Assembly (NCBI GenBank): GCA_030595795.1
Contig: JAUVCH010000005.1
Span: 1 to 64,000, forward strand
From: Gammaproteobacteria bacterium
GTDB taxonomy: Bacteria > Pseudomonadota > Gammaproteobacteria > GCA-001735895
Reading direction: 5' to 3'
Length of the DNA: 64,000 nucleotides
A program made the position numbers and the translations under genes. This document shows, one piece after another, positions 5,071 to 12,227 of this stretch (the first letter of the stretch is position 1; each line of letters starts with the position of its first letter). The notes under the pieces were generated by a model. It did not search any database. It saw only the letters and a program-made list of their open reading frames with translations, and was not told where the DNA came from.

Positions 5071-5093
5071 CCGAACATAACCACTTAGTTCGG
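5071..5093 (+). terminator. Weak hairpin after pilE
   Basis: CCGAAC (5071-5076) and GTTCGG (5088-5093) form a six base-pair stem with an 11-base loop directly after the pilE stop codon. There is no T-run immediately behind it, so it is only a weak candidate for the end of the pilin operon transcript. Confidence 0.3.
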
Positions 5094-5133
5094 GAATCTG
5101 ATCTGTTATAATTCTTTTTTAACCGATCAGATT
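5085..5133 (+). promoter_or_regulatory. Promoter with flanking 9-bp palindrome ahead of the PP-loop gene
   Basis: A perfect sigma70 -10 box TATAAT occurs at 5107-5112, with a poor -35 candidate TTAGTT at 5085-5090 (16-base spacer). The -10 is enclosed by a perfect inverted repeat, AATCTGATC (5095-5103) and GATCAGATT (5125-5133), separated by 21 bases. Either an operator for an unknown repressor or a structured 5' leader would explain this. The start codon of the next gene is at 5142. Confidence 0.5.
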
Positions 5134-5141
5134 TCCACACT

Positions 5142-6185
5142 ATGACACGCAAAGCAGTCGCCCTTATTTCGGGCGGTTTAGATTCTTTACTCGCCGCCAG
5201 GCTAATCCAGCAACAGGGTATCCAGGTTGAAGGTATCAACTTTTATACCGGATTTTGCGTCGAAGGCCATACCCACGCCATCCGCAAGAAAGATAAGGAC
5301 AAGGTAAAGCGAAACAACGCCCTCTGGTCGGCCGAACAGCTGGGTATTAAACTCCATATTATCGATATTGTTGAAGAATATAAGGACGTCGTTATCAACC
5401 CCAAACATGGTTATGGCGCCAACCTCAATCCCTGCCTCGATTGTAAAATTTTCATGGTACAAAAGGCGCATGAATGGATTCAGGCGAACGATTTCGACTT
5501 TATTATTACCGGTGAAGTGGTGGGGCAAAGGCCCATGTCACAACGTAAACAAACCATGCCGATAGTGTCGGCAGAATCCGGCGCTGATGACCTGTTACTA
5601 CGGCCACTTTGCGCGCAAAATTTACCGGCTACCAAACCCGAGAAAGAAGGCTGGATAAAACGCGATTTACTCAAAGGCTTTAGTGGCCGATCGCGTAAGC
5701 CACAGATGGCGCTGGCCAAAGAATTTGGCTTCGAAGATTACGCTCAACCGGCTGGTGGTTGCTGTTTTTTAACCGACGCCAGCTATTCGGTTAAGCTACA
5801 GGATTTATGGGATAACCGCGGCCATAAAAAATACGAAATTGACGATATCATGTTGCTGAAAGTCGGTCGGCATATTAGACCCGATCAGTCATATAAACTC
5901 ATTATCGCCCGTGAAGAAGGCGAGAACCGGTTTCTCAGCGGCTATAAAGGTCAGTTTCAAACCATTAAAACTGTCAGTCATGCGGGCCCCATGGCTCTGG
6001 TCGAAGGTGATAAACTCGATCAACAGCAAATCGAACTCGCCTGCGCAATCACGGCCCGATTCAGCAAAGGTCGTGACGAAGAATCGGTCGAACTCGTTTA
6101 CAGCGATAAGGGAGACGAATCGCAAGCCATCCACATTAAACCGTTGCTACCACAGGATCTACCCCAGGAATGGTATATAGCGTGA
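5142..6185 (+). CDS. PP-loop (MnmA/ThiI-like) sulfur-insertion protein with NFACT-R-like C-terminus
   Basis: The 347-residue protein opens with the ATP-pyrophosphatase PP-loop SGGLDS at residues 10-15, which adenylates a substrate in MnmA and ThiI-type tRNA thiolation enzymes. A CxxC motif (NPCLDCK, near residue 97) resembles the catalytic-cysteine region of MnmA. A second cysteine pair is in GGCCFLTD near residue 205. From about residue 225, LLKVGRHIRPDQSYKLIIAR resembles the NFACT-R RNA-binding domain that occurs fused to such enzymes. It lacks the full MnmA length and the THUMP domain of ThiI, so it is a distinct paralogue. The four-base overlap with a TusA-like gene suggests that gene supplies the sulfur. 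The RNA target is unknown to me. Confidence 0.75.
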   Translation: MTRKAVALISGGLDSLLAARLIQQQGIQVEGINFYTGFCVEGHTHAIRKKDKDKVKRNNALWSAEQLGIKLHIIDIVEEYKDVVINPKHGYGANLNPCLDCKIFMVQKAHEWIQANDFDFIITGEVVGQRPMSQRKQTMPIVSAESGADDLLLRPLCAQNLPATKPEKEGWIKRDLLKGFSGRSRKPQMALAKEFGFEDYAQPAGGCCFLTDASYSVKLQDLWDNRGHKKYEIDDIMLLKVGRHIRPDQSYKLIIAREEGENRFLSGYKGQFQTIKTVSHAGPMALVEGDKLDQQQIELACAITARFSKGRDEESVELVYSDKGDESQAIHIKPLLPQDLPQEWYIA

Positions 6186-6446: not shown

Positions 6447-6465
6447 ACGCACCACAATAGTGCGT
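6447..6465 (+). promoter_or_regulatory. NtrC binding site upstream of glnA
   Basis: ACGCAC (6447-6452) and GTGCGT (6460-6465) form a perfect palindrome with seven bases between. It contains GCAC-N7-GTGC, the core of the NtrC enhancer consensus. It lies about 105 bases before the glnA start codon and about 65 bases before the putative -10 box. Confidence 0.75.
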
Positions 6466-6499: not shown

Positions 6500-6527
6500 T
6501 TGGTATAAAACCAATTACCTGTACAAT
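6500..6527 (+). promoter_or_regulatory. Sigma70-type promoter of glnA
   Basis: TTGGTA (6500-6505) and TACAAT (6522-6527) are separated by 16 bases. A short palindrome ATTGGT/ACCAAT (6499-6504 and 6510-6515) overlaps the -35. I looked for the sigma54 pattern GG-N10-GC between 6466 and 6565 and found none, which is unusual for an NtrC-controlled glnA. Confidence 0.55.
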
Positions 6528-6565: not shown

Positions 6566-7975
6566 ATGTCAGCTTCTGATGTACTAAACACCATCACTGA
6601 GTACGGCGTTAAATTCGTCGATTTTCGCTTCACCGATACTAAAGGAAAAGAACAGCATGTTTCTATTCCAGCGAGTCGTCTCGAAGAAGACAGCTTCACC
6701 GAAGGGCAAATGTTCGACGGTTCCTCAGTTGCAGGCTGGAAAGGTATTAACGAATCGGACATGATCCTGATGCCTGACGCCTCAACCGCTGTACTCGACC
6801 CTTTTACCGACGAGCCAACTATCAACATCACCTGTGATGTCGTCGAACCTGCAACAGGCGAGGGCTACGAGCGCGACCCACGCTCCATCGCAAATCGGGC
6901 AGAAGCCTATTTGAAAGCATCAGGTGTTGCGGATACCGCGTATTTCGGACCGGAAAACGAGTTCTTCGTCTTTGACGATGTCAAGTGGACCACCGAAATG
7001 GGTCATTGCTCGTACAAGATCGATTCTGAAGAAGCCGACTGGAATTCGGGAAAATCCTACGAAGACGGCAACACGGGGCATCGTCCTGGCATCAAAGGCG
7101 GCTACTTCCCGGTTCCTCCGATCGATTCATTGCACGACATGCGCTCTGCAATGTGTCTGGCTCTGGAAGAGATGGGGCAAGAGGTCGAAGTACACCACCA
7201 CGAAGTCGCAACGGCCGGGCAATGTGAAATTGGCGTCGCCTTCAATACCCTGGTGAAAAAAGCCGACCAGGTTCAGACTTTCAAATATTGTGTCCACAAC
7301 GTCGCACATAGTTACGGCAAAACGGCCACCTTCATGCCAAAACCACTAGTGGGTGATAACGGTAGCGGAATGCACGTACACATGTCTCTGGCGAAAGATG
7401 GCATCAACCTGTTCGCTGGTGATGGTTATGGTGGGCTTTCGGAAACGGCTTTATATTATATCGGTGGTGTTATCAGGCACGCCAAAGCGATCAATGCTTT
7501 TGCCAACGCAGCGACCAATAGCTACAAGCGCCTGGTACCTGGGTTCGAAGCACCGGTTATGCTCGCTTATTCTGCACGTAATCGCTCGGCCTCGGTTCGT
7601 ATTCCTTACGTCAGCAACCCTAAAGGCCGCCGCGTCGAAGTTCGCTTCCCCGATTCGACAGCCAATCCATACCTGTGCTTTAGCGCATTATTAATGGCTG
7701 GTCTCGATGGTATAAAAAATAAAATTCACCCCGGCGAGGCGATGGACAAAGACCTGTATGATTTACCGCCCGAAGAAGAAGCCGAAATCCCACAAGTAGC
7801 TTTCTCGCTGGACCTGGCACTTGAGGCACTGGACCAGGATCGCGATTTTCTTAAAGCTGGCGGTGTTTTCACCGATGATGTTATCGACGGCTATATTTCG
7901 CTCAAGCACGAGGAAGTGCAACGTCTTCGGCTGGCGACCAATCCGGTCGAATTCGACATGTATTACAGCTGTTAA
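6566..7975 (+). CDS. glnA: Glutamine synthetase type I
   Basis: The 469-residue length is that of bacterial GSI-beta. Diagnostic motifs include the N-terminal domain [16 protein letters not shown], the active-site strand [10 protein letters not shown] (about residues 265-274), the ATP loop [10 protein letters not shown], and the adenylylation site [10 protein letters not shown] with Tyr near residue 398. The enzyme makes glutamine from glutamate, ammonia and ATP in the cytoplasm and is switched off by GlnE adenylylation. It is preceded by an NtrC box and a sigma70-like promoter and followed by a strong terminator, with ntrB and ntrC downstream as in the enterobacterial glnALG order. A GGAG ribosome site lies 10-13 bases before the ATG. 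Confidence 0.98.
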
Positions 7976-7986
7976 TACGGGATCAG

Positions 7987-8017
7987 AAAAAGGCTCCTGC
8001 AACGGAGCCTTTTTTTC
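7987..8017 (+). terminator. Rho-independent terminator after glnA
   Basis: AGGCTCC (7991-7997) and GGAGCCT (8004-8010) form a perfect stem with a TGCAAC loop, followed by a run of T. It separates glnA from ntrB, so ntrBC needs readthrough or its own promoter. Confidence 0.9.
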
Positions 8018-8079: not shown

Positions 8080-9138
8080 ATGCCTATCCCTTTTGACAAA
8101 ATACTGGACACGCTCAACAGTACTATTCTGTGCCTGGATACTGACCAGCGGGTTGCGTATATTAATTCTACCGGTGAAATACTATTCGACGCTAGCGCTT
8201 CTTTCTTACTCGGAAAAAGCTTTTCACAGCTACTCAGTGCAGTTGAAACCAGTACGATCAGCAGCAACCTGAAAGATTTTAACCAGCAGCACCAAACGAT
8301 AACTGAGCACGAAGCCCGGCTTACGCTGGCCAATGGCCGTTCAATCTCTGTCGACTACAGTATTTATCCGCTCGAAAACGACAATCAGGAAACCTTTACC
8401 CTGCTAGAAATTCGACCACTGGAACGCCAGGTCGAAATAGCCCGCGACCAGCAAAGTCATCTGCAAAAACAGGCGAGCCAACTATTTGCGCGTGGTGTTG
8501 CCCACGAAATTAAAAATCCACTTGGTGGTATCAGAGGAGCAGCACAGTTACTGGAACAGGAAATTCCACAGTCGAAGCTTAAAGAATATACCGATGTCAT
8601 TATCAGCGAAGTAGATCGACTACAGGTGCTAATCGACAACATGCTAGGGCCAGTTACAACTCCGGTGAAAAAGTGGGTTAATATTCTCGAAATTCTGGAG
8701 CATATCCGCAAACTTCTACAAACCGCAGAGCCCGATAGATTCGTGTTTCGTCGTGATTACGATCCCAGTATCCCTGAGATTCAGGCCGACAGAGGACTAC
8801 TCATACAAGCGCTTCTAAACATTGCATTAAACGCAATACAGGCACTCGAACGTAAAGGCAATATCACTTTTAAAACCAGAATAGGACGCCAGGTAACTAT
8901 TGGAAAGGTCAAACATCCGCTAGTTATTCAAATCGATATAATCGACAACGGTAAAGGAATTTCGTCCGAGATAGCCGAAACCATATTCCTGCCTATGGTC
9001 ACCGACAGAGCCGAAGGAACCGGGCTTGGCTTACCCATTGCACAGGAAATAATATCGCAGCATGGTGGCATCATAAAATGCCAAAGTACGCCATCAGACA
9101 CAACCTTTAGCGTCATACTTCCCCTGGAGCCGGCATGA
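8080..9138 (+). CDS. glnL: NtrB (GlnL) nitrogen sensor histidine kinase
   Basis: A soluble 352-residue kinase with an N-terminal PAS domain (residues about 5-110), a DHp helix with the H-box AHEIKNPLGG and phospho-acceptor His142, an N-box (NIALNAIQAL), G1 DNGKGI and G2 GTGLGLP. This architecture and the lack of membrane segments identify NtrB, which with PII phosphorylates or dephosphorylates NtrC according to glutamine status. Its last four bases overlap the next gene (ATGA at 9135-9138). The ATG at 8080 has no good ribosome site, but it gives the expected N-terminus of the family. Confidence 0.95.
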   Translation: MPIPFDKILDTLNSTILCLDTDQRVAYINSTGEILFDASASFLLGKSFSQLLSAVETSTISSNLKDFNQQHQTITEHEARLTLANGRSISVDYSIYPLENDNQETFTLLEIRPLERQVEIARDQQSHLQKQASQLFARGVAHEIKNPLGGIRGAAQLLEQEIPQSKLKEYTDVIISEVDRLQVLIDNMLGPVTTPVKKWVNILEILEHIRKLLQTAEPDRFVFRRDYDPSIPEIQADRGLLIQALLNIALNAIQALERKGNITFKTRIGRQVTIGKVKHPLVIQIDIIDNGKGISSEIAETIFLPMVTDRAEGTGLGLPIAQEIISQHGGIIKCQSTPSDTTFSVILPLEPA

Positions 9139-9788
9139 ACTCAAACAACACCGACAAATCGGACATCTGGGTGATCGATGACGATCAATCGATACGCTGG
9201 GTTCTCGAGCGATCCCTGTCGAACGCCGGATTTAAGGTCAGTGTTTTCGAAACAGCCTCGTCTGCACTGACACAGTTTAAACGGGCGCAAGAGAGTGATC
9301 GACCGAGGTTAATTTTAACTGACTTCCGCATGCCTGGTATTAACGGTTTCGAGTTATTAAAACAAATTAAAAACCTGGATCCGGCGTTACCCGTCATCAT
9401 AATGACTGCCTACTCCGACCTCGATACAACCGTTCAGGCCTATCAGGAAGGAGCCTTCGAGTACCTGGCAAAACCTTTTGATATCGACGAAGCAATTGCT
9501 CTGGTCACTAAGGCCTGTGAGCAAGCTAAAACTAATTCAGCCAAACAATCCGGCAATGTTTCCGACGCGCCACCTGTACCTTCGGACTGGCGAGAAGCAT
9601 TACAGCAATGGGCTGAGATAGCGCTCGCTAACGGCGATAATGCCATCTTGAAAACTGCAATCAGGGATTTTGAAAAGACCTTAATCGAGTGCGCTTTGGA
9701 AGCGACTAATGGACGCAAGCAGGAAGCGGCTAAATTACTGGGCTGGGGGCGGAATACTTTGACCAGAAAGATAAGGTCGCTGAACTAA
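9135..9788 (+). CDS. NtrC-type response regulator lacking the AAA+ domain
   Basis: Only 217 residues instead of about 470. Residues 8-125 form a complete receiver with acidic pocket D15-D17, phospho-acceptor Asp63 (LTDFRMPG), Thr91 and Lys113 (AKPF). After a short linker (about 126-148) the protein goes straight to the NtrC C-terminal region: a helix beginning at Asp151 (DWREALQQWAEIAL) and the Fis-type helix-turn-helix with EAAKLLGWGRNTLTRKI. The sigma54-contacting ATPase, with Walker A and the GAFTGA loop, is missing. The frame is continuous and there is no room for the lost domain, so this is a clean deletion rather than a frameshift. It cannot remodel sigma54 polymerase; it could still bind NtrC boxes and act at sigma70 promoters. 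It is translationally coupled to ntrB. Confidence 0.9.
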   Translation: MNSNNTDKSDIWVIDDDQSIRWVLERSLSNAGFKVSVFETASSALTQFKRAQESDRPRLILTDFRMPGINGFELLKQIKNLDPALPVIIMTAYSDLDTTVQAYQEGAFEYLAKPFDIDEAIALVTKACEQAKTNSAKQSGNVSDAPPVPSDWREALQQWAEIALANGDNAILKTAIRDFEKTLIECALEATNGRKQEAAKLLGWGRNTLTRKIRSLN

Positions 9789-12211: not shown

Positions 12212-12227
12212 AGCATATAGCGTGCCA
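12212..12227 (-). promoter_or_regulatory. Sigma54 promoter of the pilin gene
   Basis: On the minus strand the sequence TGGCACGCTATATGCT matches the sigma54 consensus TGGCACG-N4-TTGCW at 11 of 12 defined positions, with exact GG to GC spacing. Transcription would start near 12201, giving a leader of about 50 bases before the pilin ATG at 12150. It lies in the gap between 12263 (upstream stop) and the pilin. Confidence 0.8.

Follow-up and report, generated by a model that had tools for sequence, protein, structure and literature searches.

An NtrC that has lost its AAA+ domain recurs across a gammaproteobacterial genus, together with glnK-amtB promoters that lack sigma54 elements

NtrC is the textbook ATP-driven activator of sigma54 promoters. 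Several regulators of this kind have been described that depart from it. The NtrC proteins of Caulobacter and Rhodobacter capsulatus, which carry no GAFTGA motif, act at sigma70 promoters, yet an ATP-binding AAA+ domain is retained in them and their function requires it (PMC10274813; PMC12421884). TyrR, DhaR, and HupR are descendants of sigma54 activators acting without sigma54 (PMC3162934). Together with VpsR, they have left sigma54 and lack a functional GAFTGA, yet their central domain is kept. The same survey (PMC3162934) lists activators without a signal or a DNA-binding domain; as the central domain was its search criterion, it was blind to proteins devoid of it. A two-domain plan, consisting of a receiver and a Fis-type HTH without AAA+, is found in the redox regulators RegA/PrrA/ActR. 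These are sigma70-type regulators of about 180-220 aa. In the literature searched, which covered few subscription journals, no NtrC without an AAA+ domain was described, only cases without GAFTGA.

The window, i.e., the whole stretch of 64 kb analyzed here, contains the gene order glnA-ntrB-ntrC, with a short ntrC that encodes no AAA+ domain, coupled to ntrB and downstream of glnA (Table 1). Its product shares with enteric NtrC (NR(I), a group I enhancer-binding protein) the receiver, the DNA-binding domain, the operator sequence (GCAC-N7-GTGC type, as for NtrC), and the gene order, but it has neither the AAA+ domain nor GAFTGA, and no sigma54 promoter was found at glnA or glnK-amtB. Like the Caulobacter and R. 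capsulatus proteins, the short NtrC is an NtrB-paired orthologue uncoupled from sigma54, although sigma70 control of nitrogen genes is only inferred in its case. Unlike them, it lacks the whole AAA+ domain, and their nearest counterpart is rather the NtrC of a congeneric genome, G014, which retains Walker A only. RegA/PrrA/ActR pair with RegB-type redox kinases, unlike the NtrB-coupled short NtrC. Membership of the RegA/PrrA family was rejected (66 bits, for a cut-off of 250 with NF033791), and the likeness is considered a convergent architecture, not kinship.

Table 1. Coordinates of the features of the glnA-ntrB-ntrC locus (positions in the window).
Feature	Position	Strand	Support
NtrC-binding palindrome CGCACCACAATAGTGCG upstream of glnA	6448..6464	.	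Kept in orthologous glnA promoters; no binding data
-35-like TTGGTA, glnA promoter	6500..6505	+	TTGGYA conserved in genus, 16-bp spacing
-10-like TACAAT, glnA promoter	6522..6527	+	66 bp between its first base and the NtrC site center
glnA, encoding a 469-aa type I glutamine synthetase	6566..7975	+	Pfam
Inverted repeat and T run after glnA	7991..8016	+	Direct reading of sequence
Complete ntrB (sensor kinase), with translational coupling to ntrC	8080..9138	+	NCBIfam PRK11073; HisKA, HATPase_c, PAS
Short ntrC (217 aa), receiver, linker, and Fis-type DNA-binding domain, without AAA+	9135..9788	+	
Receiver domain, residues 11-124	9165..9506	+	Pfam PF00072 2.2e-28; 1dc7 match 9.5e-40
Phospho-acceptor D63 codon	9321-9323	+	
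Linker, residues 128-150, variable, predicted disordered	9516..9584	+	Alignment with intact relatives, low pLDDT, raised dN
NtrC C-terminal dimerization/DNA-binding domain, residues 151-217	9585..9785	+	1ntc, HTH_8, four helices

As for the other two genes of this arrangement, NtrB scores 311 bits with PRK11073 (cut-off 240) and contains the Pfam domains listed in Table 1, and GlnA is 82-96% identical within the family. The inverted repeat between them probably acts as a terminator or attenuator, a function inferred from the sequence alone. The ntrC ATG overlaps the ntrB stop codon (ATGA at 9135-9138, + strand), which provides the translational coupling. In the short NtrC, Pfam finds Response_reg (residues 11-124, 2e-28) and HTH_8/Fis (176-214, 5e-15), with no Pfam domain between them; the central AAA+ domain, with its Walker motifs and GAFTGA, is absent. 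The top NCBIfam matches are the two NtrC equivalog models, which align as two separate pieces, skipping the AAA+ part, and stay below their cut-offs (231 vs. 620 bits and 226.7 vs. 558.6 bits). The receiver matches the NtrC receiver structure 1dc7 (9.5e-40), and the C-terminal 69 residues (148-216) align with 1ntc, the solved DNA-binding domain of NtrC. AlphaFold2 predicts a (beta/alpha)5 receiver and four helices at 151-216 (mean pLDDT 79.5), the linker being modeled at low confidence over residues 136-149. Across nine aligned short forms, the acidic pocket D15-D17, the phospho-acceptor D63, T91, and K113 are unchanged. The original prediction, made without database searches, thus held on each structural count: a cleanly absent AAA+ domain (Pfam, NCBIfam, and alignment), a 25-residue linker in place of about 240 residues (alignment with intact relatives), a receiver with all the residues needed for phosphorylation, and an NtrC-type C-terminal DNA-binding region in a gene coupled to ntrB. 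Most likely, the protein is a genuine orthologue of NtrC in which the sigma54 ATPase has been lost, leaving a plain two-domain response regulator.

The short form is a fixed variant within the genus. It occurs in 17 genomes, namely the window genome and 16 of the 30 other genomes searched, the latter proteins being about 58-66% identical to that of the window (the G009 form, counted among the 16, is truncated at its 5' end by the contig start). Two of the 30 carry an intact full-length NtrC (G016 and G008) and one a degenerate full-length protein (G014); two further NtrCs end inside the receiver at contig ends, and the remainder have no orthologue in the assembly. Both sister genera possess an intact NtrC. 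The short forms stem from separate assemblies, which include MAGs of several isolates and projects; one lies on a scaffold of the Olavius algarvensis Gamma 3 endosymbiont (DS021199.1, G029). Pairwise comparisons show purifying selection on an in-frame gene: two examples for the whole protein give dN 0.022/dS 0.548 and 0.040/0.777, and the receiver and DNA-binding domain are strongly constrained, with a linker that changes much faster. The two outcomes that would have refuted the original prediction, an assembly collapse or an isolated mutant among intact relatives, are thus both ruled out, since the short form recurs in the 16 congeneric genomes, whose assemblies are separate.

Some of these genomes call for separate remarks. 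In G006, G017, G019, G025, and G028, which belong to the same genus and are 71-97% complete, neither an ntrC nor a close relative of the window glnA was found; this might reflect either real loss or a binning gap. A short NtrC is also present on a contig labeled as a Rhodobacter sp. MAG (L182, JASJCA010000177.1), probably a mis-binned contig of the window genus. The G008 assembly contains two different rpoB genes (L103 and L121) and is likely a mixed bin, which is a caveat on its intact NtrC.

In G014, the INTERMEDIATE case, the central domain is present and Walker A (GEQGTGKT) is kept. Nevertheless, the domain has lost its GAFTGA loop through an 18-residue deletion, along with the acidic residues of Walker B (FLDEIGD to LLKNIDT) and the arginines of FREDLFHRL (arginine-finger), and its identity to the G016 domain is down to 34%. 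No sigma54 element was found at its glnK. Judged on its sequence alone, this protein is very unlikely to work as a sigma54 ATPase. The number of deletions depends on the tree considered. Those built on GlnA and NtrB (with or without NtrC) group the window genome and G024 with G008, G016, and G014, implying two deletions, whereas in the RpoB tree all short forms make up one group (88% support), which implies a single deletion; a single loss is not rejected by the AU test (p 0.20). One or two AAA+ deletions thus occurred in the genus, and G014 is a separate decay either way. Outside the genus, even samples of the class (about 370 genomes) yielded at least one other clearly short NtrC, in G046, from a different family. 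This count is a lower bound, as one screen used a strict threshold, so that further cases are possible. The G046 gene (L076, G046:C14, ORF 5082-5678, 198 aa) follows glnA-ntrB in a 1.7-Mb genome in which no sigma54 (rpoN) match was found, and two NtrC palindromes lie less than 70 bp from the glnA start, in the presumed core promoter. It may represent an independent loss of the AAA+ domain.

The original prediction had called for a search for a full-length NtrC elsewhere in the genome: none was found in the 4.1-Mb assembly (92% complete), nor any stand-alone NtrC-type AAA+ protein. The best other protein reaches 396 bits with the NtrC model (cut-off 558.6). The intact NtrC of G016 has an AAA+ domain that shares 73% identity with its counterpart in the sister-genus genome G033, and at most 53% with any AAA+ or enhancer-binding protein of the window genome. 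Both candidates, a second full-length ntrC and a stand-alone NtrC AAA+, were rejected, as nothing reaches the NtrC cut-off or resembles the G016 domain. The rpoN gene is present in the window genome and in 25 of the 27 genomes checked. The window genome also encodes about eight other enhancer-binding proteins, several bearing GAFTGA; sigma54 is therefore likely still in use, rpoN being kept for other activators. A good -24/-12 match, TGGCACGCTATATGCT, lies at 12212-12227 (- strand), just upstream of the expected start of a type IV pilin gene. It hints that sigma54 could still serve other regulons here, bearing in mind that sigma54 matches across the whole window are no commoner than in shuffled sequences.

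At glnA, an NtrC site had been predicted at 6447-6465, and its sequence is confirmed at 6448-6464; no other NtrC-site match occurs in the 64 kb, where chance alone would give 0.04. In the family members examined, whether their NtrC is intact or short, a palindrome of this type precedes a promoter with a TTG-type -35 and a TACAAT-like -10 separated by 16 bp. These hexamers are moderate matches, of a kind common by chance. No convincing sigma54 element was found in the glnA promoters of any relative examined. As the same promoter and NtrC site exist in intact-NtrC relatives, glnA was of the sigma70 type before the AAA+ loss, and the switch expected beforehand to accompany the deletion was rejected. 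The claim of nitrogen control without sigma54 is supported, with the refinement that the deletion did not cause the change at glnA. The distance from the NtrC site center to the -10 is 75-76 bp in 13 short-NtrC genomes and 65-66 bp in three (G000, G021, and G003). These three sit at scattered places in the tree, so that the loss of about one helical turn happened more than once, with the phase kept. With intact NtrC, the distance is 76-77 bp in G016, G008, and G033, and 61-63 bp in the sister genus g3. In the clade with most short forms (L049-L063), a conserved TGCAC-N7-TGGCA overlaps the -35; this element, which neither the window genome nor its sister G024 has, is possibly a weak second NtrC site.

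The glnK-amtB promoters follow the protein. Upstream of amt2-type glnK-amtB, a -24/-12 element is found in six of six intact-NtrC genomes, 50-63 bp before glnK, with scores of 12.5-14 (shuffle p at most 0.007). It was found in none of the 16 copies from genomes with a short or dead NtrC (maximum 11.5), which backs sigma54-independent nitrogen control. The scores of the two groups differ (Mann-Whitney p 0.0002), although this value is not corrected for phylogeny and promoter comparisons between genomes share ancestry. In most short-NtrC genomes, amt2-type glnK is preceded by a pair of NtrC sites spaced by about 31 bp, the proximal one centered 66-69 bp from a weak -10-like hexamer (CAAAAT/TTAAGT). 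In three amt1-type copies, the promoter is CTGACA-17-TATNNT and lies at 77 bp from the NtrC site. The glnA spacing thus recurs at two other operons. The amt1-type glnK departs from it in G024 and in the window genome, where the candidate -10s are 43-44 bp away, as well as in G013 (45 bp). Only NtrC sites with a conserved context were used; a genome-wide regulon list was rejected, as relaxed NtrC-site matches (8) show no excess over a control pattern (7).

The favored reading, with a probability of about 0.68 and inferred without experiment, is that the short NtrC works as a sigma70 activator at glnA and glnK-amtB. Upon nitrogen limitation, NtrB would phosphorylate D63, and the phosphorylated receiver would act by way of the short linker to change the dimer state or the affinity. 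The protein would bind the old NtrC palindromes of both operons and, from about -78 or -88 (assuming that the -10 hexamer starts at -12), aid the sigma70 RNA polymerase, probably via the alpha C-terminal domain (class I). Class I activation is suggested by the position of the palindromes at glnA and most glnK promoters of short-NtrC genomes, where the distance to the -10 is about 66 or 76 bp, two values that differ by one helical turn. Among the options originally proposed (sigma70 activation, repression, or competition), this conserved, helically phased spacing favors the first, by inference. As for the evolutionary path, the family ancestor would already have had glnA under sigma70 plus NtrC, glnK-amtB would then have lost its sigma54 promoter, and the AAA+ domain, no longer needed, would have decayed (G014) or been deleted (short forms). 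The sequences themselves establish the domain loss and its fixation, the selection on the protein, the NtrC sites, the promoter co-loss, and the spacing. Phosphorylation, activation of the sigma70 polymerase, the direction of regulation, the polymerase contact, and the order of the glnK events are all inferred, with no expression, binding, or genetic data. Confidence leans only slightly towards a bolder version, with a minimal two-domain, ATP-independent class I sigma70 activator, glnK-amtB promoter turnover, G014 as an intermediate, and G046 as a second case.

Several points weigh against activation. The spacing could also suit a repressor or an architectural role, the -10-like hexamers at glnK are weak, and the off-spacing glnK copies of the window genome, G024, and G013 do not fit. 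That a receiver/Fis NtrC acts alone is not self-evident either, as the Caulobacter NtrC without GAFTGA still needs its AAA+ domain (PMC10274813). The main rival, which remains possible, sees in the short NtrC chiefly a repressor or anti-activator, which would sit on the NtrC sites and lower glnA and glnK expression or block another factor, with NtrB phosphorylation relieving or imposing the effect. The weak element over the glnA -35 in most short-NtrC genomes and the location of the G046 palindromes inside the presumed core promoter are in its favor; E. coli NtrC, moreover, represses glnAp1. Against it, the strong conserved site lies at least 20 bp upstream of the -35, with the helical phase kept through 10-bp deletions, and the weak element is missing in the window genome and G024.

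The other rivals fare worse. A nitrogen-blind, constitutive Fis-like accessory DNA-binder, whose receiver serves another signal, could be envisaged, given that in classical NtrC the lost domain couples phosphorylation to oligomerization. It is unlikely in view of an intact and coupled ntrB, invariant phosphorylation residues, and sites at both glnA and glnK-amtB. A different AAA+ protein could provide the ATPase in trans, leaving control sigma54-dependent, and rpoN and the other enhancer-binding proteins are indeed available. This is very improbable: sigma54 elements were found at neither glnA nor glnK-amtB in any short-NtrC genome, and none of the other AAA+ proteins shows more than a general similarity to the lost NtrC domain. 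Finally, a pseudogene or a collapsed assembly might be invoked, as the window genome is fragmented (189 contigs); the same in-frame architecture in the 16 congeneric genomes, under purifying selection, all but excludes it.

Short-NtrC activation at sigma70 promoters thus remains the preferred reading. A fixed NtrC without its motor, together with intact and half-decayed relatives, makes it possible to test by what route a regulator leaves sigma54, and the same set of genomes allows a test of joint promoter and protein change. For annotation, neither the ntrC name nor synteny is proof of sigma54 control. What is new here is that the glnK-amtB promoters change along with the NtrC protein. By inference, nitrogen control in this marine bacterial group most likely runs on ordinary sigma70 RNA polymerase.
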